57,500 nt of DNA from Commensalibacter melissae (GTDB lineage Bacteria; Pseudomonadota; Alphaproteobacteria; Acetobacterales; Acetobacteraceae): assembly GCF_009734185.1 (NCBI RefSeq), contig NZ_CP046393.1, forward strand, positions 182,501 through 240,000, read 5' to 3'. The notes below the pieces were generated by a model that was not told the DNA's origin, searched no databases, and was given only the letters and a program-made list of their open reading frames with translations. How positions within the stretch are numbered: position 1 is the stretch's first letter; each line of letters starts with the position of its first letter. A program made the position numbers and the translations under genes. Shown here one piece after another: positions 26,706 to 45,043 of the stretch.

Positions 26706-27060
26706 TGTTATTTTATTTCTACAAATAATTATTTTTTATTATTTCAATTGTTATCAAGAGCGTAATTAATAAATCGTAATGATTTATAATGGTTACGCTC
26801 TTAATTATTATTATATTTTATATTTCGAATAAATTATTATTAAATTAAAGAATAGATTTTATAAATATTCGTTAAATTATATCAATAATAAATAAATCGT
26901 ATTAAATTAATGATTTATTCTTTGTATTTTTATTGATATTATTAAAGATAAATTTTATTTGTTGAATCAATTACATATTTTTTATCTTATTTAAAAATCT
27001 TTTTATATAAAGATTAGGAAACTGATTTTATATAAAAATGGCGAATTAAAAGGAAATATT
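26706..27060. other. AT-rich spacer ahead of the surface-protein block
   Basis: No gene is seen. Apart from the terminator at 26756-26806, a second hairpin with the same stem words (AATAAATC 26891-26898, GATTTATT 26912-26919) occurs about 120 bases later. The remaining sequence is almost pure A and T; the promoter for the 27-45 kb block is expected here but no specific box can be asserted. Confidence 0.45.
26756..26806 (+). terminator. Long hairpin terminator after DUF2147 gene
   Basis: AAGAGCGTAA (26756-26765) pairs with TTACGCTCTT (26793-26802). An inner AATAAATC/GATTTATAAT pairing extends the stem. The trailing sequence is AATTATTATTAT, T-rich but not a clean T-run. Confidence 0.65.
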
Positions 27061-27402
27061 ATGGCCTATGTATTTACCCAGGTTTTTACCGGTAGGGAAA
27101 AATGGATAAAGCTTACAAAGGCAATCAAAGAACAAGTTTTGCAACGCATGATTTCAAGTCTATCAACCTTGGCAGGTGAAAATCGGGTCCAGTTAATCGC
27201 TATTGGTCAAATAGACGGAAAAGTTCCTCGTGCAGTGGATGCGGAATATTATGTAACCTGGTCTGTACCAATTAATGAGTTGACTTCATATATAGTTAGA
27301 CATTTTCAAGAAAGTGAATGGAATGAATATTTTGAATTGGTCAATATTGGGGGGAAAGCTTTGACTATCCCTCAATTTGCGGAAGTTATTTTAAGAGAAT
27401 AA
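27061..27402 (+). CDS. Small DUF6616-like protein
   Basis: A 113-residue soluble protein without signal peptide. I recognise only a weak resemblance to the DUF6616 group: an opening beta strand, WIKLTKAIKEQVLQRMISSLSTLAG, a charged strand (RVQLIAIGQIDG), YVTWSVPINEL and a late EWNEYFELVNIGGKA block. Such proteins look like dimeric ferredoxin-fold (ABM-like) modules of unknown function. It is 73 bases upstream of the giant Hint protein gene and on the same strand, so it may be the first gene of that block. No catalytic residue is assigned. Confidence 0.55.
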   Translation: MAYVFTQVFTGREKWIKLTKAIKEQVLQRMISSLSTLAGENRVQLIAIGQIDGKVPRAVDAEYYVTWSVPINELTSYIVRHFQESEWNEYFELVNIGGKALTIPQFAEVILRE

Positions 27403-27484
27403 TGCCAGATATATTTAACTAGATCATATTAATCAATTGAACAATATTTAAAAATACCATTGACTTTAATTAAGGATGAAATTA

Positions 27485-30400
27485 ATGCAGCCTACACGTG
27501 TACAAGATGCAGCCACATTGAGAAGTGGTGAAGATTCAGTTCCCGTATCTGACGATTCTTCAGTAACTTCCTCCTTAATTTCTTCCTCAAGTTTTGATCA
27601 TACGTCAACGTTTGCCATGCTTCAGCCAATTCCCGGTGCTACAAGCAACTCTATTGAATATGATCCATCTCAGGCGCATCCTGAATGGGGATCGGGTTAT
27701 GAACCTGATCCTAATGGGTTTAATGATAATACATTTGCCTTTAATTTTACATCTTTGACATTTTCCATGACAGATCCTACCGACATGATGAGCACGATTG
27801 CAGCGGCGGCTGGACAAGGCTGGGATTTGTTTGCAAACGCACTTGATCCTGATTCCTCCAGGATTGTTATCAATGATCCGGGTCAAGGTAATGACCTGTT
27901 GATAGGTGATGGATTGCAACTTGTTGTTGGAGCCACGCTTAGGGATCTATTAAAAAAGAATGGGGTTGATATCACTAATCCCATCGTTAGAAAACTTATA
28001 AAAGAACAGGATTGGGGGCAAAAATTTCTAAGCCAGATTGATAATTTGATCAGTGCCCAGAATGGTCCAGGACACATGATTATCTGGAATAAAACCGGCG
28101 TTATGGTTAGTGCGGGTGACAACAAGGCAACCATGGAAGTGAGGGCTGGCAACAAACTTTATGTGGGAGACACAAACAGTTCAGGATATGATGCCTTTGG
28201 AACGGGAAATTTACAGTTAGGTTATAATGAAAAAAGTGCAACGGGTTCCGCATCGCTGATCCTAGATGAAGGGTCATATCTAAGTGTTAATGGATTTTTG
28301 GGTGGAGCGGCGGATAAATCCTATGCAGGTCAATCCATTGGTTCAGGTATGGAAAATCAAAGAACAGGTGCTGTTTCAACCCAAAATCATGTAAAAATGG
28401 ATGTTGATGGAAATTGGGGGCTTGTTGGTGATATTCGACCCGATAAACCAGCCAATTGGACACGTGTAGGCAATAATAACAAGATTAATGTCGGAGGTAC
28501 ATTGGGGGTTTATATGTTGGCCTCCATGACAATTGGAAGTGATACAGAGATAAGTGTTGGATCCAATGGTTGGGCCCATACAGGAAGTGGTGTGTTTGTC
28601 GGTTCAGGTGGGTATATGTCCACTGGCTTGGGAAACAGGTTTACCATTGCTGGTGGTATGGGTGCCGGTTATATGGATCTGTCCGCTTCGGGGAAGGCGG
28701 CGCAGCTGATAATTGGTGATGATAATGTCATTCATCTTACCAACAGAAATGCCGGCATATTTGCAGCTGAGGCAGGGGCATCCGTTACAGTGGGGGATAA
28801 TTTGACCTTAACAGGGGCTGAAATATCAGTCGGTTATGGTCAAAATAGTATGGACCGAATTATTGATGAGGATTCCAAGTACCGTACTGCCTATATGTCT
28901 ATCGGTAACGATGCCAATATTTCTCTAGGTTATGAAAATTTGTATCCGATGGCCAATGCTCCATCCTTTGCAGAGGATGGTGTGATAAGATTAGATGCCA
29001 GTAATTCACTTTTACAGTTTGGAACAGGACTTGCGCTTGAAGCGAATATAATTTCCCTGGGACATTATTTAAAAGATACTTCCAATTCAAATTTTATAGA
29101 CAGTGATGGTAATGCCCTGGCTGAATTCAAGGTCGGTTCAAATAATAGCGTTGTCATTGGCTCAGGGGCAAATATCAGTTTGGGTTCTGGTATTGTTATT
29201 AATGAAAACCAGGGATATGTTGATTTGCAGGGAGGTGTTCTGAATGCTGGGTACATTCGTATGGGTCGCTATTATATTGAAAATCTGGAAGTTCCCATAA
29301 ACGGATCCAGTTATATATACCAGAATAATTCAAGTGCGTCGATTCATATTGGGGACGGTTATCAAGTCAGCTTGACCCAAGATATTACCATTGATGGTAG
29401 CTTTGATCGGTTAAATATTGGTGATAATGTCGGCATTCAAGGAAACGGGATGTATCTTGGTGATTTTAGAGGGATTGGTTCAGAAACCAATCATCCTACA
29501 TCAAGATCATTGATTTCTGCCGGCAATCTAACCTCAATGATAATAAGTGGTGACATCAATCTGAATGGTAATGCAAATTCAGTGATGTTGGGGAGCCAAT
29601 CTTTATTGGAAACCACTGACGGCAATTTAAATATAGATGGAATAAACCAGCTGTTGACTATAGGAAATGGGGGGATTTTATCCGCTGCAAAAACGCTGCT
29701 TCAGAATGGTAGTAAAAGCATTATTTCTGTTGGCAATGAAGGTAGGATTGTCGCGAGTGCTATCCAGCTAATAGGTAATGGTGAAACGTTCACTATCGGT
29801 GATAATGCTGGTATTTCTGCAGACCGAATTATTATCGGTTATCGTGGGGGTTCTTTAACGATAGGAAAAAATGTTGATTTTGATGTTCATAATTTTGATG
29901 TTAATGTATCCCGAACGGTAACATTAGGGGATGGAGCTACAGGATATATAGGTGATACAACCACGGTAGATAAAACGGTTTTCAATACGGGTAATGCGAA
30001 TAATCTTGAGTTTGGCAATATATCCCTTGGCGATAATAACAAATTTAATGTTTCAGGATCAATCAAGGGAGCTGGTATAAGCCTGGGTAGCAATACATCA
30101 TTTACAGCTGCAACAAATGCATCGGTTAATTTTGGTAGTGGTAATATCACGTTATCGAATAAAAATAATAGTTTTAAATTAAATGATAATGTTACTTTTA
30201 CGGCCGGGACGGTTACTGCTGATTTGAATACGAACAATTTTATTCTAGGCTCGAATGATTTTTATGATCTAAGAGGTTGGAATTTATCAAATACGTCAGG
30301 CTCTGCCAAAACATTCACTGTCGGGAATGGAGCTACCGGTAATTTTGGTAATGTAAATTTATTGGGTGAAAATGTCACCTTCAATACGGGTAATGCGAAT

Positions 30401-33088
30401 AATCTTGAGTTTGGCAATATATCCCTTGGCGATAATAACAAATTTAATGTTTCAGGATCAATCAAGGGAGCTGGTATAAGCCTGGGTAGCAATACATCAT
30501 TTACAGCTGCAACGAATGCATCGGTTAATTTTGGTAGTGGTAATGTCATGTTATCAGGTACCGGTAATAATTTTATACTAAATAATAATGTTGCTTTTAC
30601 GGCCGGGACGGTTACTGCTGATTTGAATACGAACGACTTCACCCTGGGTTCGAATGATATCTATGATGTGAAAGGATGGAACCTATCGAACTCGTCAAGT
30701 CTTGCAAAAAACTTTTCCATTAAGGATGGTGCGGCTGGTAATTTTGGTGACGTGAATTTATCGGGAAATATCACGTTCAATACAGGTAATATGAGTAATC
30801 TGACCTTTGGCAATGTCACGTTATCAGGTGCCGGTAATAATTTTATACTAAATAGTAATGTTGCTTTTACGGCCGGAACGGTTACTGCTGATTTGAATAT
30901 GAACGACTTCATCCTGGGTTCGAATGATATCTATGATGTGAAAGGATGGAATCTATCGAATTCATCAAGTCTAGCCAAGACATTTGCTGTCGCGGATGGT
31001 GCTACCGGTAATTTTGGTGACGTGAATTTAACGGGAAATATCGCGTTCAATACAGGTAATATGAGTAATCTGACCTTTGGCAATGTCACGTTATCAGGTA
31101 CCGGTAATAATTTTATACTAAATAATAATGTTGCTTTTACGGCCGGAACGGTTGCTGCTGATTTGAATGCGAACAATTTCACTTTGGGCTTGAATGATAT
31201 CTATGATGTGAAAGGATGGAATCTATCGAATTCATCAAGTCTAGCCAAAACATTTGCTGTCGCGGATGGTGCTACCGGTAATTTTGGTGACGTGAATTTA
31301 ACGGGTATGGTTAACTTTTCTACTGGTTTGGCAAATAATCTTATCTTAGATACAGTAATGTTGAACAAGAATGCATCCATTAATCTGGATGGGACGTATG
31401 TCACTGTTCATAACCTGGACATGAGTAATGGTGGTGTCGCAAATCTGAATTATAACAGTGCAGAGTCCAATGTTGTTTCTTTATCCAATGTAATATTGAG
31501 CGGTAATGGTCGGATAAAAATCGCACAAAATTCTGAAGTTGATATTGGTTCTCTAACAATGGACGGTGTAAATCCGGGTGTTATAGAATTGGATAATGAT
31601 GCAGTTTTGAATATCCGTTCAATCAATGCCACCAATGTTGGTACAGATATGCCGACAATCATTATTCATAATGGTGCCCGTGTTATCGTTAATGGTCAAC
31701 AAATAACAAGGTCAAGTTCTTCAAATGATTTGATTGCTGATTTTAATAATGAAGCCAATGGCGTTTACGAATATCATGGTAGCATTGAAGATGTCGATGG
31801 TCATTTGGTGATCAAGAATTTTAAACTCGATGATCATCTGTTATTTGAAAATGATACTGGGTCATCGGATGTTAACACTTTTTATACATGTTATAAGGAC
31901 GGTATTTTATCCATTATTCACAATGATGGAAAAACATCCAAAACTATTGCCTCTTTTCGTTATGATGCAGGGGACAGCAATCAGGCATTGCCTAATGTAA
32001 ATATTGTTCGGGGTTCTGATGGTAATTCCTATTTTGATATAACAAAATGCTTTCTATTGGGAACAAACATTCTTACATCTAAAGGTGAAAAACCGGTTGA
32101 ATCTCTTTCCGTTGGTGATGAGGTTGTGGCTATTTGTAATAATGGAAGGATAAACCGTAAAATTGTTTGGATTGGTAAAACGGATATTTCCGTGGATCAA
32201 GGTAAAAATAAAAACGATTTGTATCCAGTTTGTATCAAAGCACACGCATTTGGTCTGAATAAACCGCATCGTGATTTATATTTAACCCCTGAACATACCG
32301 TGTATATTGATGGTGGTTTGATTCCTGTCCGTATGTTGGTTAATGGCCGTTCGATTGTTATTGATAAATCCCGGGACAAATTCCAGATTTATCATGTTGA
32401 AACAGAACAACACTCGATTTTGCTATCAGAAAATCTGATGACTGAATCTTATTTAAATACAGATGATAAGTATCTATTTGATAACGATATTGTTAATTTC
32501 GGTCTGGAGTTTAATGAACATGCAGGTCATAAAAGCTGGGAAAATGACGCAGCTGCACCATTGACTGTTTCCAGAAGCAAGGTTGAACCGATTTGGAATC
32601 GTTTGGATCGCAGGGCAACTCAGCTGGGGTATAAACCTATCATAAAAAGAGCGATAACCCGTAATCCTGGTTTATGCCTTATTACTGATAAGGGGAAAAA
32701 GATTAAGCCTGTTCATTTCAAGGATAATATTTACAGTTTCTTTATTCCTGATGGTACTTATGTTGTAGCCATGAATTCAAAAACATCTTTACCTTCAGAT
32801 GTTATTGGACCCTTTATAGATGATAGACGGACACTAGGTGTTTTGGTTTCGAAAATTAGCGTGATTTCTAATAGAACCCTGATTATGTTCCCGACTGATA
32901 TTTCGGAACTTTCAGGTTGGCATAGCATTGAGCCCGATAGAACAGATCGTTGGACAATGGGATTGGCGCAATTGCCAATTGAGATAACAAGATTTGGCAC
33001 TGGGAAAAAATTGATCCGGGTTGAGCTGACAGATACAGCTTCTTATTTTGTTGAAGATGATATCAATGAAATGATGAAACTGGCATAA
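27485..33088 (+). CDS. Giant repeat surface protein with C-terminal Hint domain
   Basis: About 1867 residues. Residues 1-130 are Ser/Thr-rich with no classical signal peptide, so export may be non-Sec or type I (inference). Residues ~130-1430 are Gly/Asn/Asp-rich strands with NxTIGxNxxI-like turns, as in beta-solenoids; ~833-1280 are near-identical repeats. A Hint domain begins at C1522 (CFLLGTNI) with VESLSVGDEV, the LTPEHTVYIDG histidine block and HVETEQHSILLSE. The last ~180 residues (DDRRTLGVLVSKI, GWHSIEPDRTDRWTMG) form a module I associate with Acetobacteraceae Hint proteins. Hint domains self-cleave via the cysteine. Start 27485 is chosen because AAGG (27472-27475) is well spaced to it, while ATG 27476 abuts it. 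A probable substrate of the heptosyltransferase at 43.4-44.9 kb. Confidence 0.85.
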   Translation: MQPTRVQDAATLRSGEDSVPVSDDSSVTSSLISSSSFDHTSTFAMLQPIPGATSNSIEYDPSQAHPEWGSGYEPDPNGFNDNTFAFNFTSLTFSMTDPTDMMSTIAAAAGQGWDLFANALDPDSSRIVINDPGQGNDLLIGDGLQLVVGATLRDLLKKNGVDITNPIVRKLIKEQDWGQKFLSQIDNLISAQNGPGHMIIWNKTGVMVSAGDNKATMEVRAGNKLYVGDTNSSGYDAFGTGNLQLGYNEKSATGSASLILDEGSYLSVNGFLGGAADKSYAGQSIGSGMENQRTGAVSTQNHVKMDVDGNWGLVGDIRPDKPANWTRVGNNNKINVGGTLGVYMLASMTIGSDTEISVGSNGWAHTGSGVFVGSGGYMSTGLGNRFTIAGGMGAGYMDLSASGKAAQLIIGDDNVIHLTNRNAGIFAAEAGASVTVGDNLTLTGAEISVGYGQNSMDRIIDEDSKYRTAYMSIGNDANISLGYENLYPMANAPSFAEDGVIRLDASNSLLQFGTGLALEANIISLGHYLKDTSNSNFIDSDGNALAEFKVGSNNSVVIGSGANISLGSGIVINENQGYVDLQGGVLNAGYIRMGRYYIENLEVPINGSSYIYQNNSSASIHIGDGYQVSLTQDITIDGSFDRLNIGDNVGIQGNGMYLGDFRGIGSETNHPTSRSLISAGNLTSMIISGDINLNGNANSVMLGSQSLLETTDGNLNIDGINQLLTIGNGGILSAAKTLLQNGSKSIISVGNEGRIVASAIQLIGNGETFTIGDNAGISADRIIIGYRGGSLTIGKNVDFDVHNFDVNVSRTVTLGDGATGYIGDTTTVDKTVFNTGNANNLEFGNISLGDNNKFNVSGSIKGAGISLGSNTSFTAATNASVNFGSGNITLSNKNNSFKLNDNVTFTAGTVTADLNTNNFILGSNDFYDLRGWNLSNTSGSAKTFTVGNGATGNFGNVNLLGENVTFNTGNANNLEFGNISLGDNNKFNVSGSIKGAGISLGSNTSFTAATNASVNFGSGNVMLSGTGNNFILNNNVAFTAGTVTADLNTNDFTLGSNDIYDVKGWNLSNSSSLAKNFSIKDGAAGNFGDVNLSGNITFNTGNMSNLTFGNVTLSGAGNNFILNSNVAFTAGTVTADLNMNDFILGSNDIYDVKGWNLSNSSSLAKTFAVADGATGNFGDVNLTGNIAFNTGNMSNLTFGNVTLSGTGNNFILNNNVAFTAGTVAADLNANNFTLGLNDIYDVKGWNLSNSSSLAKTFAVADGATGNFGDVNLTGMVNFSTGLANNLILDTVMLNKNASINLDGTYVTVHNLDMSNGGVANLNYNSAESNVVSLSNVILSGNGRIKIAQNSEVDIGSLTMDGVNPGVIELDNDAVLNIRSINATNVGTDMPTIIIHNGARVIVNGQQITRSSSSNDLIADFNNEANGVYEYHGSIEDVDGHLVIKNFKLDDHLLFENDTGSSDVNTFYTCYKDGILSIIHNDGKTSKTIASFRYDAGDSNQALPNVNIVRGSDGNSYFDITKCFLLGTNILTSKGEKPVESLSVGDEVVAICNNGRINRKIVWIGKTDISVDQGKNKNDLYPVCIKAHAFGLNKPHRDLYLTPEHTVYIDGGLIPVRMLVNGRSIVIDKSRDKFQIYHVETEQHSILLSENLMTESYLNTDDKYLFDNDIVNFGLEFNEHAGHKSWENDAAAPLTVSRSKVEPIWNRLDRRATQLGYKPIIKRAITRNPGLCLITDKGKKIKPVHFKDNIYSFFIPDGTYVVAMNSKTSLPSDVIGPFIDDRRTLGVLVSKISVISNRTLIMFPTDISELSGWHSIEPDRTDRWTMGLAQLPIEITRFGTGKKLIRVELTDTASYFVEDDINEMMKLA
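29981..30544 (+). repeat. 165-bp direct repeat, two copies (29981-30145 and 30380-30544)
   Basis: Copies begin TTCAATACGGGTAATGCG and lie exactly 399 bases (133 codons) apart. By eye they differ at one base (ACAAATGCA versus ACGAATGCA). They are inside the repeat-protein gene and in frame. The near-identity at DNA level points to recent duplication or gene conversion. Confidence 0.85.
30655..31315 (+). repeat. 270-bp tandem units in the repeat protein gene
   Basis: The phrase GATATCTATGATGTGAAAGG recurs at 30655, 30925 and 31195, a period of 270 bases or 90 codons. Each unit encodes a YDVKGWNLSNSSSLAK start, a GATGNFGDVNL middle and a NNFILNNNVAFTAGTV end. The third unit is incomplete. Copies differ at scattered bases only. 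Confidence 0.85.
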
Positions 33089-33126
33089 AGCAATTTGTTG
33101 ATTATCCAGTTAAATAGGGTTAATAG

Positions 33127-33166
33127 AGCTTTCCTTTTATTATAGCTAAAAGGGAAGCTTTTATTT
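33127..33166 (+). terminator. Terminator between Hint protein gene and AMP-binding gene
   Basis: AGCTTTCCTTTT (33127-33138) pairs with AAAAGGGAAGCT (33148-33159), 12 bp with one G-T pair, followed by TTTATTT. It sits 16 bases before the GTG start of the next gene, so it would limit read-through from the surface-protein gene into the PKS genes, or act as an attenuator. Confidence 0.75.
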
Positions 33167-33181
33167 AAGGGAAAAACAGAC

Positions 33182-34654
33182 GTGTTTGATCGCTTCATAG
33201 ATTATGTTGCAAAAGTTGCACCGGATAAAATTGCTATCCGTTCATTCGAAGGCTCAATTACTTTTGCGGCAATGAATAGAGACATAAATCGGCTTGCACA
33301 TGCTTTATTGGACGTTATTGATAATAGTTCCGAAATTGTGGCTGTTAATTATAAGCAAGTACATATTCACTGGATGCTTTTAATGGCGCTAAGCCGAATT
33401 GGTGTCGCTTCAGCGTCAGTGTCCAGTAATAGCGAGATTGCTGAAAAGGAGATTGCTATATTGCAGCCTGATGCAATTATTAGCGATACGCTTTTTGATA
33501 TTGATACGGCAGCTAAAATACACGTGCTTGATTTGAATTGGTATGATCAGGCCATGAAGCGTTTCAAACCTGATCCCATTTATACGCTCTATGAACCGGA
33601 TCGTATTGTACGTGTTTCAATTGCGGCTGGAACGTCTTTCATGCGGCATAGAATTGATTATACAGCCTCAATGATTGAATCATCTGTCATAAGGATGATT
33701 ACCCAGGAAAAAATCAGCTGGTCTCTTATGTCGGAAATTCCGAGATATCCAACATTGCTACCCACATTAGCTTTTGGCAGTTTTCATGGATTTTTATGCT
33801 ATCTAAGCATCTGGTCAATCGGCGGGACAATTATTATGGCTGATCGCGAGCAGTATTTTGCCGCTATTGCCATGTTGTCACCTGATTTGATGGTTATTTC
33901 GCCTGCACAGCTTCAATTGATTGCAGAAAATTTGCCAGAAGATATACCCAGACAGGATCATTTAAGATTAATTGTCGTTGCTGGTAATTTTCCTAATGGT
34001 TTACGTCATTTTGTTCAGCAACGTCTGACAAAAAATCTGAATGTTACCTATGCGACAAGTGAGGCAGGGGTTATCGCTTCGATCAATATTGATCAAATCA
34101 ACCATGATGACACAGCGGGGTGGATCATGCCATGGATTGATGTGCAGGTTGTTGATGATCAAGACCATCCACTAACATATGGTGAGATAGGTAATATCCG
34201 AATTAAAAGTCCAAATATCGTACAGAAATTTTTCCAAAATGTTCAGGATACTCATAAACAGTTTAAAAATGGTTGGTTCTATCCCGGCGATTTAGGAATA
34301 TTGAATGAGGAAGGTCTTTTAAGGCTGATTGGTCGTGTAGATGAACTTTACAATTTTGGAGGTGATAAATTTTACGCTAATAAAATTGACGCAGTCATTT
34401 GCAGTATAGAAGGTATAAAAGATGCGGCTCTGTTTTCCATGCCTGATAACGATGGAATTCAGCAACCCTGGTTAGCTATTGTTCGCGGAGGTAATTTTGA
34501 TATTGATCAAATTGCTAGGCTATTGGAAAAAGAATTTTATAACCTGCCCGATGTAAGTGTCTTATGGGTCAATTCCATTCCGAGGGATGAAGAGGGACAT
34601 GTATTGCGCAATCATCTAGAAAAGCTGGCAATGCAATATATTGAAACCATTTAA
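33182..34654 (+). CDS. Divergent AMP-binding (acyl/aryl-CoA ligase-like) protein
   Basis: A 490-residue member of the adenylate-forming (ANL) fold. C-terminal motifs are well kept: WFYPGDLGILNEEGLLRLIGRVDELYNFGG and KFYANKID. However, the phosphate loop normally [ST]SGTTGxPK reads SIAAGTSFMRH (residues ~146-156), and the A10 catalytic lysine in IPRDEEG-K is H473 (EEGHVLR). Loss of that lysine usually abolishes adenylation, so the protein may be a non-catalytic or condensation-only relative, or use only the thioesterification half-reaction. The start is GTG with AAGGGAAAAA upstream. It sits ahead of the PKS gene (75-base gap), suggesting a role in its starter or product handling. Confidence 0.75.
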   Translation: MFDRFIDYVAKVAPDKIAIRSFEGSITFAAMNRDINRLAHALLDVIDNSSEIVAVNYKQVHIHWMLLMALSRIGVASASVSSNSEIAEKEIAILQPDAIISDTLFDIDTAAKIHVLDLNWYDQAMKRFKPDPIYTLYEPDRIVRVSIAAGTSFMRHRIDYTASMIESSVIRMITQEKISWSLMSEIPRYPTLLPTLAFGSFHGFLCYLSIWSIGGTIIMADREQYFAAIAMLSPDLMVISPAQLQLIAENLPEDIPRQDHLRLIVVAGNFPNGLRHFVQQRLTKNLNVTYATSEAGVIASINIDQINHDDTAGWIMPWIDVQVVDDQDHPLTYGEIGNIRIKSPNIVQKFFQNVQDTHKQFKNGWFYPGDLGILNEEGLLRLIGRVDELYNFGGDKFYANKIDAVICSIEGIKDAALFSMPDNDGIQQPWLAIVRGGNFDIDQIARLLEKEFYNLPDVSVLWVNSIPRDEEGHVLRNHLEKLAMQYIETI

Positions 34655-34729
34655 TAAAAATTCGAGATAGAATATTTTATTAATGAGAAAATATAATAAA
34701 TAATTATAGAAAAAAGAAAGTGTTATTTT

Positions 34730-37700: not shown

Positions 37701-40700
37701 TTGACCAGCATTTTTATCCGTATATGACTTGGTGCCTTGATGATTTAACAGGGCGATTACTTGCTTTTGGGCGAGTCAAAAATGATTCGCATGAATGGGA
37801 ATTATATGCAACGGTTGCTCTGCGACGTACTATGCCATGGTCGGAAGATAAGGTAATTGATCTCCAGATATTAAAAGGGAAAATGTCTGAAGATATTCAG
37901 ATTGAGTTCTTTTACCAGAAATTACGTGAGCATGGACTGGAATATGGCCGGGCTTTCCAAACAATTAAGAGATTATATCATAATTCTGATGCCGTATTGG
38001 CCTATCTTGAAATTGCTGATACTGAACAGAATAGTATCAAGGATTATTGTATTCATCCAACCTTGTTGGATGGGGCTTTTCAACTGTTTGGAATTTTGTG
38101 TGCAAAACAACAAGTAAAAGATACCACTTTCCTTCCTGTCGCTATTGAGCGGGTTATGTATTATGGTCGACATGAGGGCAAGTTATATGCTTATGCCAAT
38201 AATCCGGTAAGAGATGAAGACTTATTCACTGGTGATATTGATCTTTATACTGAAAAGGGAGAATTGATTGCTTCTATCAAGGGGTTGACTGTTAAAGAAA
38301 TAGCCAGTCAAAAGCAGAAAGAAGCCAGACAGATGGGATTGCTTTATCATCGTGAATGGCAAAAATCAAAACCTTTATCTCTTCTAGGAGAAATTGCCAA
38401 GATTGCGATATTGACAGATAGTGATCAATTTTTTGAACTCCTGAAAAAAGAACTTGAGATGCAGGGGATAACTGTTCTTGTTGGAAAGATTGGTCAGCAG
38501 TTTGGAAAAGAGACTGAAGACCTATTTCATATTCGGGAAGGTCAGGTAAAAGATTATCAGGATTTTTTTTCTTTTGTTAATATTCATCAATGTCGTGCGG
38601 TTGTTTATTTTTATACCAGAAACAACGAATTTGAAGATAGAATTGGATTGTCTCTGGTACAAGAAGCTCTGGTGCTGTCACATGGATTACCGGTAATTGA
38701 AGAAAAGAAAATTTCAGAGAATTTTCGTTTCGTGATAATTACTAATGGATCAGAACAAATTCATGAAAATAATAAATCAATTAATTTGGATCAATCATCA
38801 TTAAGAGGATTTGCGAGGGCTTTTTCCTTTGAACGTCCTGAACTGAAATTAAAATTGATTGATATTGATGCGGATCTTAAGACAGATTCAGCTATTCTTG
38901 CAGCTGAAATCCTGGATGAGGAGATGGAGGATGATGTTGTCTTGCGTGGTCAGGATCGCTACCTATCCCGTCTAACACCAATGACAAGGCGTGAGGAAGT
39001 GCAATGTGTTCCTTATGAACAATTTGATTCTCAAAAAATTGGATTTCGGCTTGTTTCTGGTTTTCCGGGTATTTTGGATAAAATCCGTTATGATGCATTT
39101 GTGCGTCAACCACCGCCTCCAGGTCATGTAGAACTTGAAATTATTGATGCTTCTTTGAATTTTAAAGATGTATTGAAAGTTATGGGCCTGTTACCGCGTT
39201 CTGTCATGAAGGATACATTTCACGGTGATGGACTGGGAATGGAAGCCTCTGCAAAGGTTGTCGCCGTTGGTAAAGGGGCGGAGGAGGCTGGCTTTTATGT
39301 TGGAGATCGCCTTGTCATTACGTTTAAGGGATGTTTAACTTCACATGTTACCCTGGCATTGAAGGATATTTACGCGGTCCATTATTCCACGCATTCCTTG
39401 TTAAGGGAATCAAAACGATATCAGTTGACCTCTGATGAAATTGATAAAATCAAAGAATATGATCAACATAAAATCCCTGATGCAGAAGCGGCTACTGTGC
39501 CCATAGTGTTCTCTACAGCTTATCATACACTGATCAATTTGGCGAATTTACAAAAGGGTCAAATAGTTCTTATTCATGCTGCGGCAGGCGGTTTGGGACT
39601 GGCAGCAATTCAAATTGCAAAAATGCGGGGAGCCAGAATTTTTGCAACGGCTGGAAATGAGAAAAAACGTCAGTATTTGCGGGATTTGGGATGTGAACAG
39701 GTTTGGAATTCGCGTAATCTTGAATTTGTCGATGGGGTTAAACAGGTAACTTGTGGAAGGGGAGTGGACGTTATCCTGAATTCCCTATCAGGAGAAGCAT
39801 TACATCACAGTTTGGAACTGCTTGCCCCATTCGGCAGTTTTTGTGAGGTGGGAAAGAAAGATATTGCCGAAGAACGCTGGATGCCAATGAAGGCATTCAA
39901 TAAAAATATTAATTTCTTTTCTATGGATTTGGATCGGATGGGAGCTGTTTGTCCAGAAAAAGTTCTGGATATTGTGACAAAAATTGTGCGGGATATAATG
40001 AATGACAAAATTATTCTGCCACCCTGTAAGGTCTATCCTGCTGCCAAAGCGGTTGAAGCGTTCAGAACATTAGCTTCTGCCCAGCATATCGGTAAAATTG
40101 TAATCAATTTTACCGATACAAAAGATGTAATGGTTAATCCTCTTCAAAAAAAAGTTGCCTCGATTGAAGCTAATGCGCTTTATCTGGTGACAGGCGCTTA
40201 TGGCGGTATGGGGCTTGAATTGGTGCAATGGCTGGCTGAAAAAGGAGCCAAACATCTTGTCTTGATAGGGCGCTCACTTAAGAAAAATGATTCATCAATT
40301 CAGAAAATTCTAAGCATCTTACAAGAGAATGAAATCAGTTTGTATCAAATGCAGTGCGACCTTACGGATTTTCATGCCCTACAACAAACAATTGGAAAAG
40401 TGCAACAGTTGCCATATCCTCTAAAGGGAATATTTCATTGTGCTGCAATTATTGATGATGGAGTGGTTGAAAATCTTGATAGGGAACGGGTTGCAAAAGT
40501 TATGTTACCCAAGGCGCAGGGTGCCTGGTATCTGCATGAGCTGACCAGGGATATTGCGTTGGATCATTTTGTTTTATTTTCATCTGCGACTCATTTGTTT
40601 GGCAATATCGGTCAGGCAGCCTATATTTCCGCAAATGCCTTTCTGGATGCTTTGGCGCAATATCGTCAAAGGATTGGTTTGCCTGCTCTATCTATTGAGT

Positions 40701-41272
40701 GGGGCGCTATTGATGGTGGCAATATGCTGAAAAAGGATAGTCATGTTGTCAAAACATTTCAGAATTTTGGAGTGAATCCTCTACCTGTCAAAAAGGCACT
40801 CGATGTAATGCCATTATTATGGAAACTTCACAAACCCTTTTTGGCCGTCCTTGATATTGATTGGTCAAAATGGTTCAGCGCGTTTCCTGTTACGCGAACT
40901 TATGGTCGTTTTCAGCCTTTGACCGCATTAGGGATTTCAACAGGTGAACAGACTGAAGTTATGAAACAGTTAAATACCTTGCCTTTAGAGGGGCGTTTAC
41001 CTTTTGTCATCGAGAATTTAATTCATATTTTGGAAAAAACGTTGCAATTACCAGCAGATACAATTGATGGAAACACTCGGTTAACCGAGCTCGGAATTGA
41101 TTCTTTGATTGGAGTGGAACTGCAGATTGCGATCAGTAATCAGTTGGGATGTGAAATTTCGTTGCTACAGCTTATGAAAGAGGAAAATCTTCAGGATGTT
41201 GGACGGGTATTGCTTAGAAAGTTAAAAGTTCCTTTTGAAAGTAATGAAATTTTAACACTGGAAAATGTCTGA
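34730..41272 (+). CDS. Type I reducing polyketide synthase, single module KS-AT-DH-ER-KR-ACP
   Basis: A 2180-residue protein with all reducing domains. KS (~10-440) has C187 in DTACSSS, histidine in EAHGTGTPVGD and NIGHLEAAAG. AT (~540-870) has S644 in GHSVGE; the specificity position reads LAYH, between the malonyl HAFH and methylmalonyl YASH types. DH (~905-1190) has H942 (WLPDHKVEG) and D1114 (TLLDGAF). A structural KR half (~1200-1430, FARAFSFERPELKL) precedes ER (~1440-1750, AAAGGLGLAAIQIAK). KR (~1810-2020) has VTGAYGGMG and Y1965. ACP carries S2125 (GIDSLIGVEL). No methyltransferase or thioesterase is present. A fully reduced acyl chain, possibly by iterative use, is the expected product; release must be by another protein. 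Confidence 0.95.
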   Translation: MGRLINKYSNEEIAIVGIGCRFPGDIFNLSSFWEAICQKKETVSRILPDRWNWRTAYDQDNSVIAKSFFLNASFLTQPIVEFDPLFFGMSPKEAVQCDPQQRILLEVAWEALEEGGLVPSSYAGQKVGVFIGVFATDWLTKHSVSEAKEGEIERNFLPTTLPITMLSARLSYFFDFCGPSLVLDTACSSSLTAIHLACQSLRNGDSDMALAGGVNLMITDQSGAIVAKANFMAEDGKSKSFDASADGYGRGEGCGIVVLKRLKDAVRDGDKIHAVISGVGINQDGHNEGLTVPNARAQEKLIHQVAQQANVQLGDIVYVEAHGTGTPVGDPLEAQAISNTIGKSRPNGQPVIIGSVKANIGHLEAAAGVAGLIKACLCVKHRAVPPQANLKEPNPNIPFAEMNLRLIQDKVVSLKSLSDDLYVAVNSFGYGGSNANVILRAPRQNEQSSDICGKTACLPSNRYILSLSTKQLPSLKLMAQSYCEYFEQGTDISLADICYSVGKHRSFFQKHLVVVAKNKDEFIQNLQDFIQDKVNSDVIIGNQQVKTQSRPVFVFSGMGPQWWGMGKWLLSKGPAECITIAGKCDSYFKKLSGWSILEEMQKMETESRIHETAVAQPAIFVIQVCIATALKIYGIEPSAIVGHSVGEIAAAYISGALSLKDAVTVIYHRSRLQQKFSGQGAMLAVGLPPSSAVNLIEKYAGDVTVAAINSTRSFTLSGSKENLEKIALELDRHSEFNRFLRVELAYHNPIMDQIREEFEASVQDICPQMPVIPLYSTVTGRICDDTFFHDENYWYRNLRQTVLFAEAVSSLIHDGHNLFLEIGPHPVLSSSIKECAATLNSSIAVTYSLHRSEPEEKAIIKTLANLSAIGLDLDWGKITGGKRVDLPFYRWARESYLFESKHSKATRLAERVNPVLGNVDWAASRGWLSEMNINFMPWLPDHKVEGMIVLPGAAYVEAALAAHAQLAIDAPKEMQEPAIIEDLQLKKAMIIDQHFYPYMTWCLDDLTGRLLAFGRVKNDSHEWELYATVALRRTMPWSEDKVIDLQILKGKMSEDIQIEFFYQKLREHGLEYGRAFQTIKRLYHNSDAVLAYLEIADTEQNSIKDYCIHPTLLDGAFQLFGILCAKQQVKDTTFLPVAIERVMYYGRHEGKLYAYANNPVRDEDLFTGDIDLYTEKGELIASIKGLTVKEIASQKQKEARQMGLLYHREWQKSKPLSLLGEIAKIAILTDSDQFFELLKKELEMQGITVLVGKIGQQFGKETEDLFHIREGQVKDYQDFFSFVNIHQCRAVVYFYTRNNEFEDRIGLSLVQEALVLSHGLPVIEEKKISENFRFVIITNGSEQIHENNKSINLDQSSLRGFARAFSFERPELKLKLIDIDADLKTDSAILAAEILDEEMEDDVVLRGQDRYLSRLTPMTRREEVQCVPYEQFDSQKIGFRLVSGFPGILDKIRYDAFVRQPPPPGHVELEIIDASLNFKDVLKVMGLLPRSVMKDTFHGDGLGMEASAKVVAVGKGAEEAGFYVGDRLVITFKGCLTSHVTLALKDIYAVHYSTHSLLRESKRYQLTSDEIDKIKEYDQHKIPDAEAATVPIVFSTAYHTLINLANLQKGQIVLIHAAAGGLGLAAIQIAKMRGARIFATAGNEKKRQYLRDLGCEQVWNSRNLEFVDGVKQVTCGRGVDVILNSLSGEALHHSLELLAPFGSFCEVGKKDIAEERWMPMKAFNKNINFFSMDLDRMGAVCPEKVLDIVTKIVRDIMNDKIILPPCKVYPAAKAVEAFRTLASAQHIGKIVINFTDTKDVMVNPLQKKVASIEANALYLVTGAYGGMGLELVQWLAEKGAKHLVLIGRSLKKNDSSIQKILSILQENEISLYQMQCDLTDFHALQQTIGKVQQLPYPLKGIFHCAAIIDDGVVENLDRERVAKVMLPKAQGAWYLHELTRDIALDHFVLFSSATHLFGNIGQAAYISANAFLDALAQYRQRIGLPALSIEWGAIDGGNMLKKDSHVVKTFQNFGVNPLPVKKALDVMPLLWKLHKPFLAVLDIDWSKWFSAFPVTRTYGRFQPLTALGISTGEQTEVMKQLNTLPLEGRLPFVIENLIHILEKTLQLPADTIDGNTRLTELGIDSLIGVELQIAISNQLGCEISLLQLMKEENLQDVGRVLLRKLKVPFESNEILTLENV

Positions 41273-41332
41273 GAATAATTCAAGTAAAAATTTGAACGTA
41301 TAGATACGAGTGATGGTATTGGTAAAGAAAAG

Positions 41333-43378
41333 ATGGTTTTGATTATCCCGAAAGAGCAGACGGAAGACCGAACTTGTAAGCAACATAACGTTGTTGATTG
41401 GCGAAACGATACCCTTGTTGATATGGTGCGGCATCGTGCATGCTCATCACCCTCAATGGTTATTTATACGCTGTTGAATGACCAATGTGATCCTGTTGAC
41501 ACTCTGACGGCCATTCAACTTGATCATCAGGCTTCGGTTATTGCGGCAGGACTGCATCATTTTGGTAAGGAAAAAAACAGGGTTTTGATCTTATGTGAAA
41601 ATGATTTGAATTATGTTTTGGCATTTTTTGGCTGTATATATGCCAATATGATCCCTGTTTCAGGAATTCATGTTGATGTTATTCGCAGTGATGAACGATT
41701 TGCAACGGTTTTAAATGATGCGCAACCAGATTTTGTTATTGGTCCACGTCATTTACTGATCGAATATAAAGATTATTTTCGGAAACTGGATTGTAATCCT
41801 GTCTGGATTCCCCTGGAGGTTTTATTAAATGTCAGGGATAAATTAATTAAAAAGGGTGATAATAAGGATGTTGCTCTAATTCAGTACAGTTCAGGGACAA
41901 CTCGGAATACGAAAGGGATTTTGATTACGCATCGTAACTTGATGTATAATGTGCGACATCAGCCAGCAAGTGAAAAAATTCTTGAAAGTGAATGCAACGG
42001 ATTGAGTTGGTTACCTTTCGCTCATGATATGGGATTAATCGGGGGGATTATAGTTCCAGTAGGTTTGGGACGAAAAATTTTTTTGTTGCCTCCAAAATAT
42101 TTTATTGAAAAACCGGTAAGATGGTTACAGGCGATTACCAGATATAAAATACAGGTTTCTGGTGGACCAACATTTGCCTATAATCTTTGTTTAAGGGAAA
42201 TCACGGAAAATGAGATCAGGAAATTAGATCTATCGTCATGGCAAATAGCAGTGAATGGGGCAGATAATTCTCAGGCTGAAACAATAGAAAAATTTTGCAA
42301 GAGATTTTCCTCGGCAGGGTTCAGGGCCAGGCATTTCATTTTTGGATATGGTCTTGCCGAGGCAACGTTAACCGTTACTAACAGCAAGGCAAATGTTTCC
42401 CCTAAAATCAGGAATTTTTCACGAAAAGCCCTGATGACAGGTTTCGTTAGGCAGGCTTCTGATGTTAATGATCAACGCATTTTGGTTTCATGTGGTTATT
42501 CTTTGGAGGATCAAAAGATTGTTATTGTGAATCCGGAAAACGACCAAATCCTACGAGATGGACGGGTCGGAGAAATTTGCGTTTCTGGACCCAGTGTTGC
42601 GAGAGGATATTTCAATCGTCCAGAAGAAACAGAGGATGTATTTCATGCAAAATTATCTGGTTCCAAGGAATTTTATTTACGGACCGGTGATTTGGGGTTC
42701 ATTTATGAAAATGAATTGTACTTTGCTGGAAGGATCAGCAACGTCATAACATTAGGCAACAAGAAATATGATCCTGGCGATATTAGTGGCACATTGGAAA
42801 ATTCCTGTCCTGATATCCGCATTAATGGAACAACCTTCTTTCTTGAAAATTTAAAGGATCCAACATCAATAACCATTCTTGCGGAAACCATACGAAATCC
42901 CGTCAAGTCATATGAAGAAATTGCCGGATATATTTATGAAAAGGTAACCAAGCTTTATATGATTTGGCCTCGGACAATTGTATTGACACGTCCGGGAGGT
43001 GTCTTAAAAACACCCAGTGGCAAAATTCAGATTGCGCGTACGCGAGAGGCTTTTTGCGAGAAGAAACTTCCTGTCATTAAGGAATTTCGATATCAGGTTC
43101 CGATCATTACAGCATTTTTGTCTTTTAAAGAGGCATATAATCAAGTAGAAGAATGGATTGGAAATGTAACGAAAGATTGGAGGGGGAATGTAAAGCAATT
43201 AACACGCAACAAATTGTTGAACAAAGAGGTTAATTATGACCTTTTGTTAGACTTACGTTATAAATTTGAAGAAAAATTTCACGTTGAGATTGACCCATCT
43301 GATTTTATGACCGCATGTCAAACATATACGGATTTATGTCATTTATTAGCAAAGCAAATTTGTAATTCTGAATTATAA
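41333..43378 (+). CDS. Fatty acyl-AMP ligase (FAAL) with degenerate C-terminal ACP-like domain
   Basis: A 681-residue protein. Residues ~25-595 are a FAAL: QYSSGTTRNTKG (from residue 184), LSWLPFAHDMGLIGG, FGYGLAEATLTV, YLRTGDLG and the A10 lysine K564 in TPSGKIQIAR. FAALs adenylate fatty acids and hand the acyl group to an ACP rather than CoA, priming PKSs. Residues ~600-681 resemble an ACP (LRYKFEEKFHVEIDPSDF, TYTDLCHLL), but the phosphopantetheine serine position is Y635 (VNYDLLLDL), so this ACP cannot be charged in the usual way. It lies 60 bases after the PKS gene and very probably loads the PKS. Confidence 0.9.
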   Translation: MVLIIPKEQTEDRTCKQHNVVDWRNDTLVDMVRHRACSSPSMVIYTLLNDQCDPVDTLTAIQLDHQASVIAAGLHHFGKEKNRVLILCENDLNYVLAFFGCIYANMIPVSGIHVDVIRSDERFATVLNDAQPDFVIGPRHLLIEYKDYFRKLDCNPVWIPLEVLLNVRDKLIKKGDNKDVALIQYSSGTTRNTKGILITHRNLMYNVRHQPASEKILESECNGLSWLPFAHDMGLIGGIIVPVGLGRKIFLLPPKYFIEKPVRWLQAITRYKIQVSGGPTFAYNLCLREITENEIRKLDLSSWQIAVNGADNSQAETIEKFCKRFSSAGFRARHFIFGYGLAEATLTVTNSKANVSPKIRNFSRKALMTGFVRQASDVNDQRILVSCGYSLEDQKIVIVNPENDQILRDGRVGEICVSGPSVARGYFNRPEETEDVFHAKLSGSKEFYLRTGDLGFIYENELYFAGRISNVITLGNKKYDPGDISGTLENSCPDIRINGTTFFLENLKDPTSITILAETIRNPVKSYEEIAGYIYEKVTKLYMIWPRTIVLTRPGGVLKTPSGKIQIARTREAFCEKKLPVIKEFRYQVPIITAFLSFKEAYNQVEEWIGNVTKDWRGNVKQLTRNKLLNKEVNYDLLLDLRYKFEEKFHVEIDPSDFMTACQTYTDLCHLLAKQICNSEL

Positions 43379-43413
43379 AAATAATTTTAATTCTACATTG
43401 AAAGGGAACTATC

Positions 43414-44901
43414 TTGACCCAGAATGATAAGGTGAGAGTAGAAGGGTTTGAAAGAGTTAAATTAAAAGTTAAAGGTGAAGACAATTTATCAAGTTCTCTG
43501 GAAAACAAGCAGACTCAGGAAAGTGAATTAATTAACAAAATAAATAATTTATCACAAAACAGACAGGTCCAAGACGCCATTCAAGCATTGGATAAACGAT
43601 TTTCACCTATGATTGGTGGTGAAGAGGTGAACAATCAAACAGAACAAAAGCCGGCAAATAGCACCAAAAATCTGGTAAATCAATTTATACAGGCTTCTCC
43701 TAAGCCTACCCAAAAAGGACCCATGGGTATTTTATACGATTTTAATTTTGGAATACGCGTATATGTTCCAAAACCAGCTGCAGGGGAGGGATGGCGCGTT
43801 TGTTTAATGGATCTTGATACAGAGGTTGTCTTGCTGGATCAAACCTGCCAGGATCAGGGATATGCAACCACTGCCAAACATCATTATATGAATGGAAAAA
43901 TCATTGTTTCAAAGATTCATAGGGATGGAAAGCAAGAAGAGGTTCTTGTTCATGAATATAATGCTCGGGGCAAGGAAGTTTTAATTGCCTTTCCAGTCGG
44001 ATCCTTGGGGGATTCACTGGGTTGGGTGCCCTATGCAGAAAAATTTAGGAAGAAACATGACTGTAAACTGACATTGGCTTTGGGAAAAAATCTTATTGAT
44101 TTGTTTGAAAAAGCCTATCCGGAAATCAGATTTGTTGACGCTTCTGTTTATGCTCAACAGAAAATTGAAAACAAATTTTATGCAGGATATTATATAGGCC
44201 TGTTTTTTGAGGATGAACAAAATAATTGGCAACCTCGTGATTTCAGGTTGGTAGGATTACATCGAACGGCAGGATATATTTTGGGTGTGGATCCTGAAGA
44301 GGTTCCCCCTCGTTTGGTTGCAAGTGAAGATACAAGACCTATTCCAGAACCTTATGTAGTCATTGCTACACAGGCCTCGACACAATGTAAATACTGGAAT
44401 AATCCTTTTGGATGGCATTATATTATTGATTTTTTGAAAAGCCTTGGATATCGTGTAATTTGTATTGATAGGGACAGGGTTTTCGGAAAGGATCTTGTTT
44501 GGAACCATATTCCAAACGGTGCGGAAGATCAAACAGGTCCGCGTCCTTTGACGGAAAGAGTACGCTGGTTAAAATATGCCGAATTTTTTGTCGGATTATC
44601 TTCTGGCCTTGCCTGGCTTGCATGGGGTGCTGGTATTCCAGTTGTTGTTATTTCAGGATTTACCAATCCATTAACTGAATTCAATACGCCTTATCGTGTG
44701 TTCAATACGCATGTTTGTAATGGATGTTGGAATGATATTCGATATTTATTTGATCATAATAATTTCTTATATTGTCCGAAACATAGCAACACTTCCCGAC
44801 AGTTCGAATGCACCAAGGCAATTTCTCATCAGCATGTTATCAAAACCATTTTGTCCATTCCAAGTTGTCGTCAGAAACCAGTAAATGAAAAAGGCAAGTA
44901 A
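43414..44901 (+). CDS. Autotransporter-type O-heptosyltransferase (TibC/Aah family)
   Basis: A 495-residue protein. The first ~105 residues are a polar, low-complexity extension. The core matches the bacterial autotransporter heptosyltransferase family: GILYDFNFGIRVYVP, FPVGSLGDSLGWVPYAEKF, GLHRTAGYILGVDPEEVPP, CKYWNNPFGWHYI, GLSSGLAWLAWGAGIPVVVISGFT and FNTPYRVFN. Four cysteines C435-x2-C438, C454 and C466 (HVCNGCW, LYCPKH, FECTK) correspond to the iron finger of TibC. TibC-type enzymes add heptose from ADP-heptose to serines in beta-strand-loop-strand repeats of autotransporters in the cytosol before export. The start is TTG with AAAGGGAA seven bases ahead. The obvious candidate substrate is the repeat protein at 27.5-33.1 kb. 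Confidence 0.93.
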   Translation: MTQNDKVRVEGFERVKLKVKGEDNLSSSLENKQTQESELINKINNLSQNRQVQDAIQALDKRFSPMIGGEEVNNQTEQKPANSTKNLVNQFIQASPKPTQKGPMGILYDFNFGIRVYVPKPAAGEGWRVCLMDLDTEVVLLDQTCQDQGYATTAKHHYMNGKIIVSKIHRDGKQEEVLVHEYNARGKEVLIAFPVGSLGDSLGWVPYAEKFRKKHDCKLTLALGKNLIDLFEKAYPEIRFVDASVYAQQKIENKFYAGYYIGLFFEDEQNNWQPRDFRLVGLHRTAGYILGVDPEEVPPRLVASEDTRPIPEPYVVIATQASTQCKYWNNPFGWHYIIDFLKSLGYRVICIDRDRVFGKDLVWNHIPNGAEDQTGPRPLTERVRWLKYAEFFVGLSSGLAWLAWGAGIPVVVISGFTNPLTEFNTPYRVFNTHVCNGCWNDIRYLFDHNNFLYCPKHSNTSRQFECTKAISHQHVIKTILSIPSCRQKPVNEKGK

Positions 44902-44986
44902 GGTTTAATAACAGTTGGATGTAAGGGCAACGGGCAAAATTCTTTAAGGGATATGATTAAGTCAATCCAATAATGGTGGAGTGAGA

Positions 44987-45022
44987 GAAAAAGCTTCTAG
45001 TTTTTTCTAAAAGCTTTTTTTA
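44987..45022. terminator. Bidirectional terminator between heptosyltransferase gene and ubiG
   Basis: AAAAAGCTTCTAG (from 44988) pairs with CTAAAAGCTTTTTTT across a T-loop. The stem lies between two convergent genes and has a T-run on the plus side and a T-rich tail when read on the minus strand, so it can end both transcripts. Confidence 0.8.
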
Positions 45023-45043
45023 ATTTATTTTGTAGTTAACAAA

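Follow-up and report, generated by a model that had tools for sequence, protein, structure and literature searches.

The chromosome of Commensalibacter melissae, a single contig of 1.96 Mb, carries a block of six co-oriented genes within the 57,500-nucleotide stretch analyzed here (G000:C1:182501-240000, the window). The block encodes a small DUF6616 protein, a giant repeat protein with a Hint domain, a degenerate AMP-binding protein of the ANL superfamily that we call AMPd, a single-module type I polyketide synthase (PKS), a protein of the fatty acyl-AMP ligase (FAAL) type, and a TibC/Aah-type O-heptosyltransferase. Across several genera of the Acetobacteraceae, the last four of these genes recur as a conserved unit that is very probably also a functional one. 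The composition of the cluster is known from the polyketide section of PMC8776678. New here are Commensalibacter as a bearer of the cluster, in 9 of 9 genomes, the loss of adenylation motifs from AMPd, a 19-residue period in the repeat proteins (8 residues in Commensalibacter), and the reading of the cluster as a surface-protein system.

A six-gene block between two hairpins

The open reading frames and the Pfam and NCBIfam matches agree with the gene order, strand, and boundaries given in a preliminary description of the window, and domain scans bear out its complete PKS and its heptosyltransferase and show a second AMP-binding protein of FAAL type (Table 1). Intergenic gaps within the block are 73, 93, 75, 60, and 35 bp. 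The terminators that had been proposed at 26.8 kb and 45.0 kb both fold as hairpins with T-rich tails, and neither is among the 23 sites listed by a consensus terminator scan. Because of the gaps of 35–93 bp and the flanking hairpins, the six genes are likely co-transcribed, as far as sequence can tell. Over 17,954 bp, the block shares 99.1% identity with that of Commensalibacter melissae AMU001.

Table 1. Features of the block, in window coordinates
Feature	Position	Strand	Evidence
Terminator-like hairpin upstream of the block	26756..26802	+	stretch 26752-26815 folds at -20.6 kcal/mol, z -6.0, T-rich tail
DUF6616 protein, 113 aa	27061..27402	+	PF20321 9.5e-28
Repeat/Hint surface-protein candidate, 1870 aa	27476..33088	+	Hint_2 1.6e-33
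Passenger, Asn-rich	27476..31960	+	8-residue period z 4.6; 19-residue period z -1.9
Long tandem DNA repeats inside the passenger, units of 399 and 270 bp	29981..31305	+	
Hint domain, aa 1525-1662	32048..32461	+	Cys1525 at first position; TPEH and HVETEQH stretches
Post-Hint C-terminal tail, ~200 aa	32480..33085	+	folded in model
AMPd, pseudo-ligase of the ANL superfamily that has lost its P-loop and A10 Lys	33182..34654	+	AMP-binding 2.8e-22 (incomplete)
Single-module type I PKS, KS-AT-DH-ER-KR-ACP	34730..41272	+	all six domains found (Pfam/NCBIfam); catalytic residues present
FAAL-type fatty acyl-AMP ligase with C-terminal extension	41333..43378	+	second AMP-binding protein of the block
TibC/Aah-type O-heptosyltransferase, clade B	43414..44901	+	TIGR04414 hepto_Aah_TibC 566 bits (cut-off 200); TibC 4rap 1.2e-120
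Terminator-like hairpin after the block	44986..45021	+	stretch 44985-45025 folds at -12.3 kcal/mol, z -2.5, T-rich tail

Conservation of the cluster in the Acetobacteraceae

A FAAL relative of at least 55% identity is found in all nine genomes of Commensalibacter. Nine loci of the genus were read (the window, seven further loci, and that of AMU001, L113), and AMPd, the PKS, FAAL, and the heptosyltransferase are present in every one. Seven of them have a complete Hint gene; a contig end truncates it in G151, and in G153 it lies out of reach.

The comparison of gene neighborhoods proposed in the preliminary description shows that the Hint, FAAL/PKS, and heptosyltransferase genes do co-occur in other Acetobacteraceae. 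A profile search of genome contigs with the AMPd alignment gave 476 relatives, and 32 of the best 80 loci are named as Acetobacteraceae genera or as the family. Among these 32, a PKS is found in 30, FAAL in 29, a heptosyltransferase in 29 (with a 30th, in L135, recovered by tblastn), and a Hint gene in 18. The two loci lacking a PKS are metagenome-assembled genomes (MAGs) of Acidisphaera, and the FAAL of Asaia sp. W19 falls beyond a contig end. The order AMPd-PKS-FAAL-heptosyltransferase recurs in Commensalibacter, Bombella, Saccharibacter, Asaia, Gluconobacter, and Acetobacter. In Asaia, FAAL and two heptosyltransferases are inverted but still belong to the same locus, with all five parts within ~20 kb. 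The Hint gene adjoins AMPd/PKS in 16 of the 30 named loci that carry a PKS; the other 14 are 12 loci of Bombella or Saccharibacter and 2 cut by contig ends. When 397 genomes of the family were searched for AMPd, 68 had a match at 1e-25; the strong matches are in the genera listed above and a few more, and the weak ones, not all of which were inspected, resemble ordinary ligases.

Comparison of sequences indicates that the module is vertically kept, co-inherited, and under purifying selection. Between pairs of Commensalibacter genes, the ratio of nonsynonymous to synonymous substitution rates (dN/dS) is 0.07–0.22 for AMPd, 0.04–0.16 for the PKS, 0.05–0.11 for FAAL, and 0.08–0.13 for the heptosyltransferase, with many of the underlying dS values near saturation.

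The polyketide section of PMC8776678 describes a PKS flanked by acyl ligases and accompanied by an O-heptosyltransferase, duplicated in some genera. The window block resembles its beta-group type-1 PKS cluster in having a KS-AT-DH-ER-KR-ACP PKS flanked by acyl ligase genes. That group is described with Hint proteins in Asaia and without a thioesterase, and it is set apart by an O-heptosyltransferase and the absence of a pyridoxal phosphate–dependent aminotransferase; no such aminotransferase is found here in the six block genes or ten neighbors scanned. The same section does not name Commensalibacter as a bearer, and it mentions no dead ligase, repeat period, heptosyltransferase clades, or surface reading. 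In the literature searched, neither the surface-protein reading nor the AMPd pattern was found, heptosyltransferases were not paired with Hint domains nor Hint domains with Acetobacteraceae, and a polyketide synthase appeared together with an O-heptosyltransferase in PMC8776678 alone.

The acyl-handling proteins and the surface-protein candidate

The preliminary description had called the first AMP-binding protein degenerate. Its adenylation motifs are indeed lost, but the loss holds throughout the cluster and is not peculiar to this strain. The P-loop and the A10 Lys are both absent in all 41 PKS-linked AMPd rows (39 loci) of a 46-row set and both present in the five rows (four loci) not linked to a PKS, namely L122, L135, L143, and L145, the last on the same contig as L220. 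Two AMPd proteins outside that set (G029 and G116) also lack both motifs, and the loss was judged by alignment to solved ligases as well. Because AMPd shows purifying dN/dS values despite the lost motifs, it is a retained protein whose job has probably changed.

The AMPd tree joins 32 cluster rows in one clade (support 99), nearest to which are the Acidisphaera pair and L221, which has an intact-looking loop and lies on a 7.7 kb contig free of Hint genes. In the two Acidisphaera MAGs, an intact AMPd adjoins a Hint gene with TIGR04415, the heptosyl-target repeat, without a PKS and without a FAAL match at 1e-60. In one of them (L135), a divergent heptosyltransferase of 55.8% identity lies beside the AMPd-Hint pair by tblastn. 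Given that these loci pair an intact AMPd with a repeat-Hint gene and have no PKS, and that L135 adds a heptosyltransferase, we infer that the Hint protein may already have been coupled to an acyl-handling step when the PKS and FAAL arrived, and that activation may then have passed to FAAL.

The PKS is a complete single-module reducing synthase with ketosynthase (KS), acyltransferase (AT), dehydratase (DH), enoyl reductase (ER), ketoreductase (KR), and acyl carrier protein (ACP) domains and no thioesterase domain, as is also reported for the cluster in the polyketide section of PMC8776678. A Pfam scan found no reductase domain that could release an alcohol. In an alignment of 40 full-length cluster rows (38 loci), all 40 keep the catalytic residues of the KS (Cys and two His), DH (His), KR (Ser and Tyr), and ACP (Ser), and 38 keep the Ser and His of the AT. 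The two rows with a gap at the AT residues come from one genus, g30 (G029:C1:1525207-1531248 and G116:C1:1337328-1343363), and have several Hint genes around them. Mycobacterial lipid synthesis of the Pks2/MAS type likewise uses a FAAL with a single-module KS-AT-DH-ER-KR-ACP synthase that lacks a thioesterase. Pks2 is the best NCBIfam model for the block PKS, and yet its 1160.7 bits lie far below the equivalog cut-off of 2400, short of what would mark a multimethyl-branched-acid synthase. The consistent motif loss in AMPd beside a PKS that lacks a thioesterase provides a concrete candidate for chain release by synthases of this kind.

The top NCBIfam match of the FAAL is a nonribosomal peptide synthetase/PKS model (353.8 bits, N-terminal part), followed by seven FAAL models at no more than 318 bits, all below their cut-offs. 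FAAL proteins are 680–695 aa long in Commensalibacter versus 582–621 aa in other rows, with the C-terminal extension confined to Commensalibacter among the rows measured. The extension weakly resembles an ACP (14.5 bits, below cut-off). Elsewhere in the genome, a second FAAL-like stretch (G000:C1:1757743-1758963, L051) is part of a 2187-aa frame in which a single TAA interrupts the match, and the same is seen in G122.

The heptosyltransferase keeps the TibC catalytic Asp110 and iron-finger Cys339, Cys342, Cys358, and Cys370 as D200, C435, C438, C454, and C466 (mechanism and numbering from passages of PMC4358343). In an alignment of 78 rows, the Asp and three of the Cys are present in 78/78 and the fourth Cys in 77/78, with one gap. 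The 57 cluster rows (56 genes, L128 and L223 being one gene) form two exclusive clades, A with 30 rows and B with 27, and 21 solo rows fall outside both. The cluster/solo label changes 2 times on the tree versus a shuffled mean of 18.6. Commensalibacter cluster enzymes belong to clade B only, heptosyltransferase A being missing beside FAAL. The second heptosyltransferase of the C. melissae genome (G000:C1:1149816-1153343, L105) sits directly beside a 762-aa Hint protein, without a PKS, and on a long tree branch; that of G136 (G136:C1:1742501-1743660) is split across two frames.

Periodicity was measured in 44 passengers, the portions of the repeat proteins that precede the Hint domain. A 19-residue period marks the 29 cluster passengers of genera other than Commensalibacter, with z between 1.7 and 7.5 and 27 of them at 2 or above. 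Both Acidisphaera passengers share it (z 6.3 and 6.4), and of six solo passengers only one reaches even z 2.1 at this period. The seven Commensalibacter cluster passengers instead have an 8-residue period (z 4.4–5.8) and a negative z at 19. TIGR04415 is found in the Gluconobacter cluster Hint protein (4.7e-19), just below cut-off in Asaia, and also in the cluster Hint proteins of G136, G029, and G085, with G061 below cut-off. It occurs only at places other than the cluster in G122, G152, and G040 and was not found in the G155, G154, G032, and G206 genomes. The one Hint_2 and one TIGR04415 match in each genome of genus g61 (G061, below cut-off for TIGR04415, and G136) both belong to the cluster protein. 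Genes next to the G061 cluster that were considered as type I secretion genes were rejected, as Pfam gives DsbD, beta-propeller, creatininase, halogenase-like, and GT4 matches.

Residues 700–1490 of the window passenger are predicted as an all-beta solenoid (AlphaFold2 mean pLDDT 84.6, alignment of four sequences). A Foldseek search of the PDB gave no significant match (best E 0.095), with S-layer RsaA, Hap, EspP, Ag43, and TibA among those listed. The preliminary description had suggested that a solenoid is glycosylated here; the solenoid model and the kept TibC residues fit that suggestion, while the strain has no recognized heptosylation repeat. Across the family, the Hint protein is probably a heptosylation substrate; for this strain the case is evenly balanced. 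As far as the passages of PMC4358343 and the 4rap structure go, the systems TibC/TibA and Aah/AIDA-I resemble the cluster in enzyme family, catalytic Asp, and the four iron-finger Cys. The likeness extends to the 19-residue period of cluster proteins outside Commensalibacter, and the Commensalibacter passenger is without that repeat. A further difference is that the target here ends in a Hint domain, with no autotransporter beta-barrel found by Pfam in the repeat/Hint protein and no signal peptide seen by eye, without a predictor, at the N termini of Commensalibacter Hint proteins.

The model of the Hint domain plus tail has a mean pLDDT of 82.7. Its Hint part is modeled well and matches intein-like domains and Hedgehog, and the matches do not extend into the tail. 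In 23 aligned rows, Cys25, His107, His140, and His146 (alignment numbering) are invariant, and features of Hedgehog-type autoprocessing (Hint fold, nucleophilic Cys, and TxxH) are present. By our own reading, the alignment lacks the terminal His-Asn that we take to mark splicing inteins. The fold and the Cys, TxxH, and His positions are shared with Hedgehog and bacterial intein-like (BIL) domains, with a higher Z to BIL than to Hedgehog; unlike these, the block Hint precedes a tail of ~200 aa. On the Hint tree, the cluster label changes 4 times versus a shuffled mean of 17.2, the exceptions being the Acetobacter senegalensis and G275 cluster Hints, which group with solo domains, and one G222 Hint, which stands apart. 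Elsewhere in the C. melissae genome (G000:C1:351712-358789, L108), two adjoining Hint proteins have near-identical Hint parts and different passengers, as would result from a recent duplication in which passengers were swapped.

Possible roles of the cluster

The explanation we tentatively favor, at somewhat less than an even chance, is a vertically kept surface-assembly module in which a heptosylated surface protein is supplied with a PKS-made acyl chain. The heptosyltransferase would place heptoses from ADP-heptose onto the solenoid in the cytoplasm, while FAAL would activate a fatty acid for the PKS, which would extend it to a long reduced chain on the ACP. AMPd, freed from acid activation, could be the missing release or handover factor that stands in for a thioesterase, and it would deliver the chain to the protein or to its sugars. 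The product would be exported, probably by type I secretion, which is proposed because no signal peptide was seen, and the Hint domain would cleave itself off the passenger at Cys1525. The Commensalibacter passenger would have become an 8-residue solenoid. Within this scheme, the surface glycoprotein has good grounds in the family as a whole and weaker ones in this strain. Transfer of lipid to protein is a reasoned guess, and attachment of the PKS chain to the protein or its glycan is possible but rather doubtful.

Several observations weigh against this explanation. An ADP-heptose epimerase and a type I HlyD are present in 18/18 genomes chosen, but both are probably general in the family and therefore lend weak support. 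The module genes evolve faster than argG (dN/dS 0.01–0.02). At E 0.001, TIGR04415 matches nothing in the genome of the window, nor does it match the window passenger, and no heptosyltransferase lies within 1.8 kb after FAAL in A. senegalensis, tblastn included. The grouping of AMPd with Acidisphaera has a support of 80 in a midpoint-rooted tree, and the handover role of AMPd would draw only on its lost motifs and the absent thioesterase. The interpretation of the preliminary description is weakened in that Hint_2 occurs in 117 of 150 family genomes and the same Hint domain with its ~200-aa tail is found in proteins away from any PKS; this part is thus not specific to the cluster, and the PKS lipid is therefore no general Hint partner. 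No Hint gene is nearby in any of the 12 Bombella or Saccharibacter loci, by neighborhoods and tblastn, so the Hint protein is no obligatory neighbor. The support as a whole comes from sequence and structure models. The surface-system interpretation of the preliminary description is partly supported: the single unit across genera stands, while the Hint domain and tail are not special to the cluster and no recognized heptosylation repeat is found in this strain.

A doubtful but real possibility is that the PKS product is an outer-envelope membrane lipid or glycolipid in free form, with the glycoprotein genes belonging to the same envelope state and AMPd acting as a scaffold or regulator, without a covalent link. 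The resemblance of FAAL and the single-module reducing PKS to mycobacterial lipid systems, at its sub-cut-off Pks2 score, fits such a product, as do the Bombella and Saccharibacter loci, which have a PKS and heptosyltransferases but no Hint gene nearby. It is harder to reconcile with the AMPd-Hint pair that stands without a PKS in two Acidisphaera and with cluster heptosyltransferases that stay separate from the 21 other copies in the tree. The cluster has also been discussed as the source of a metabolite. PMC8776678, in its polyketide section, lists it among metabolite clusters and suggests sulfur-containing metabolites for the Bombella-type cluster, and the Bombella cluster is considered as an antifungal candidate in passages of PMC8262860 and, with doubt, of PMC9147383. 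In the former, the B. apis strains studied carry a type I PKS, and their spent medium is antifungal in a protease- and heat-stable way. A secreted, possibly heptosylated or antifungal metabolite, with the heptosyltransferases glycosylating the polyketide, seems unlikely all the same. The enzymes belong to the protein-modifying TibC family with its catalytic and iron-finger residues, and in several genera the cluster Hint proteins carry heptosyl-target repeats. The passages of PMC8262860 and PMC9147383 contain no test tying the PKS to antifungal activity, and PMC9147383 considers the cluster too widespread for a bee-symbiosis feature.

By analogy with Hedgehog, a hydroxyl (or amine) of the PKS product might attack a thioester at Cys1525 and leave a C-terminal lipid. 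Such a Hint-mediated link is quite improbable: the same Hint and tail occur in proteins distant from any PKS, 12 of 30 PKS clusters have no nearby Hint gene, no alcohol-releasing reductase domain was found in the PKS, and sterol-type loci give no parallel (see below). That the neighboring genes have no common function is least credible of all. Hint genes are common, and the 12 loci that lack one agree with it, but order is kept across genera and the rearranged Asaia loci hold all their parts together. Chance neighborhood is rejected by this linkage and by the heptosyltransferase and Hint trees, and the AMPd motif pattern contradicts it as well.

The PKS cluster is widespread in insect-associated AAB (acetic acid bacteria) and is discussed as a possible origin of an antifungal that shields honey bee brood. 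If the favored reading of a surface glycoprotein with a lipid is true, the hunt for that antifungal would be pursuing the wrong product, and a new way of linking sugar, lipid, and protein could be tested in culturable bacteria.

One Acidisphaera MAG (L122:6305-15776) places AMPd and its TIGR04415-Hint gene before four same-strand sterol-type genes in an operon-like arrangement. These encode SdmA-like (386 bits) and SdmB-like (297) proteins, a methyltransferase with a sterol-methyltransferase C domain, and an oxidosqualene cyclase–like protein (757). The SdmA, SdmB, and cyclase NCBIfam scores are below the cut-offs of 600, 600, and 851, and the Pfam score of the methyltransferase (64.8 bits) is above its own. 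An oxidosqualene cyclase match at 1e-120 is found in this one of 397 family genomes. Among 385 genomes of the class, six have such a cyclase, and none of the six loci has a Hint gene (stretches of 7–19.5 kb, several limited by contig ends). A general pairing of sterol genes with Hint is rejected on this count, and the arrangement, noticed after the fact, is therefore limited to one MAG. It is a long shot that the dead acyl ligase and Hint jointly attach a PKS chain, in AAB, or perhaps a sterol, in this one Acidisphaera, to a heptosylated solenoid. Equally remote is the analogy that such a lipoglycoprotein pathway would offer, with AMPd-Hint as the core, an exchangeable lipid supplier, and a bacterial counterpart of Hedgehog lipidation.

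At the edges of the block, the DUF6616 gene is found beside the cluster only in Commensalibacter among the loci read. A methyltransferase gene on the opposite strand (window:45044-45796) adjoins the block and is kept in seven other Commensalibacter loci.

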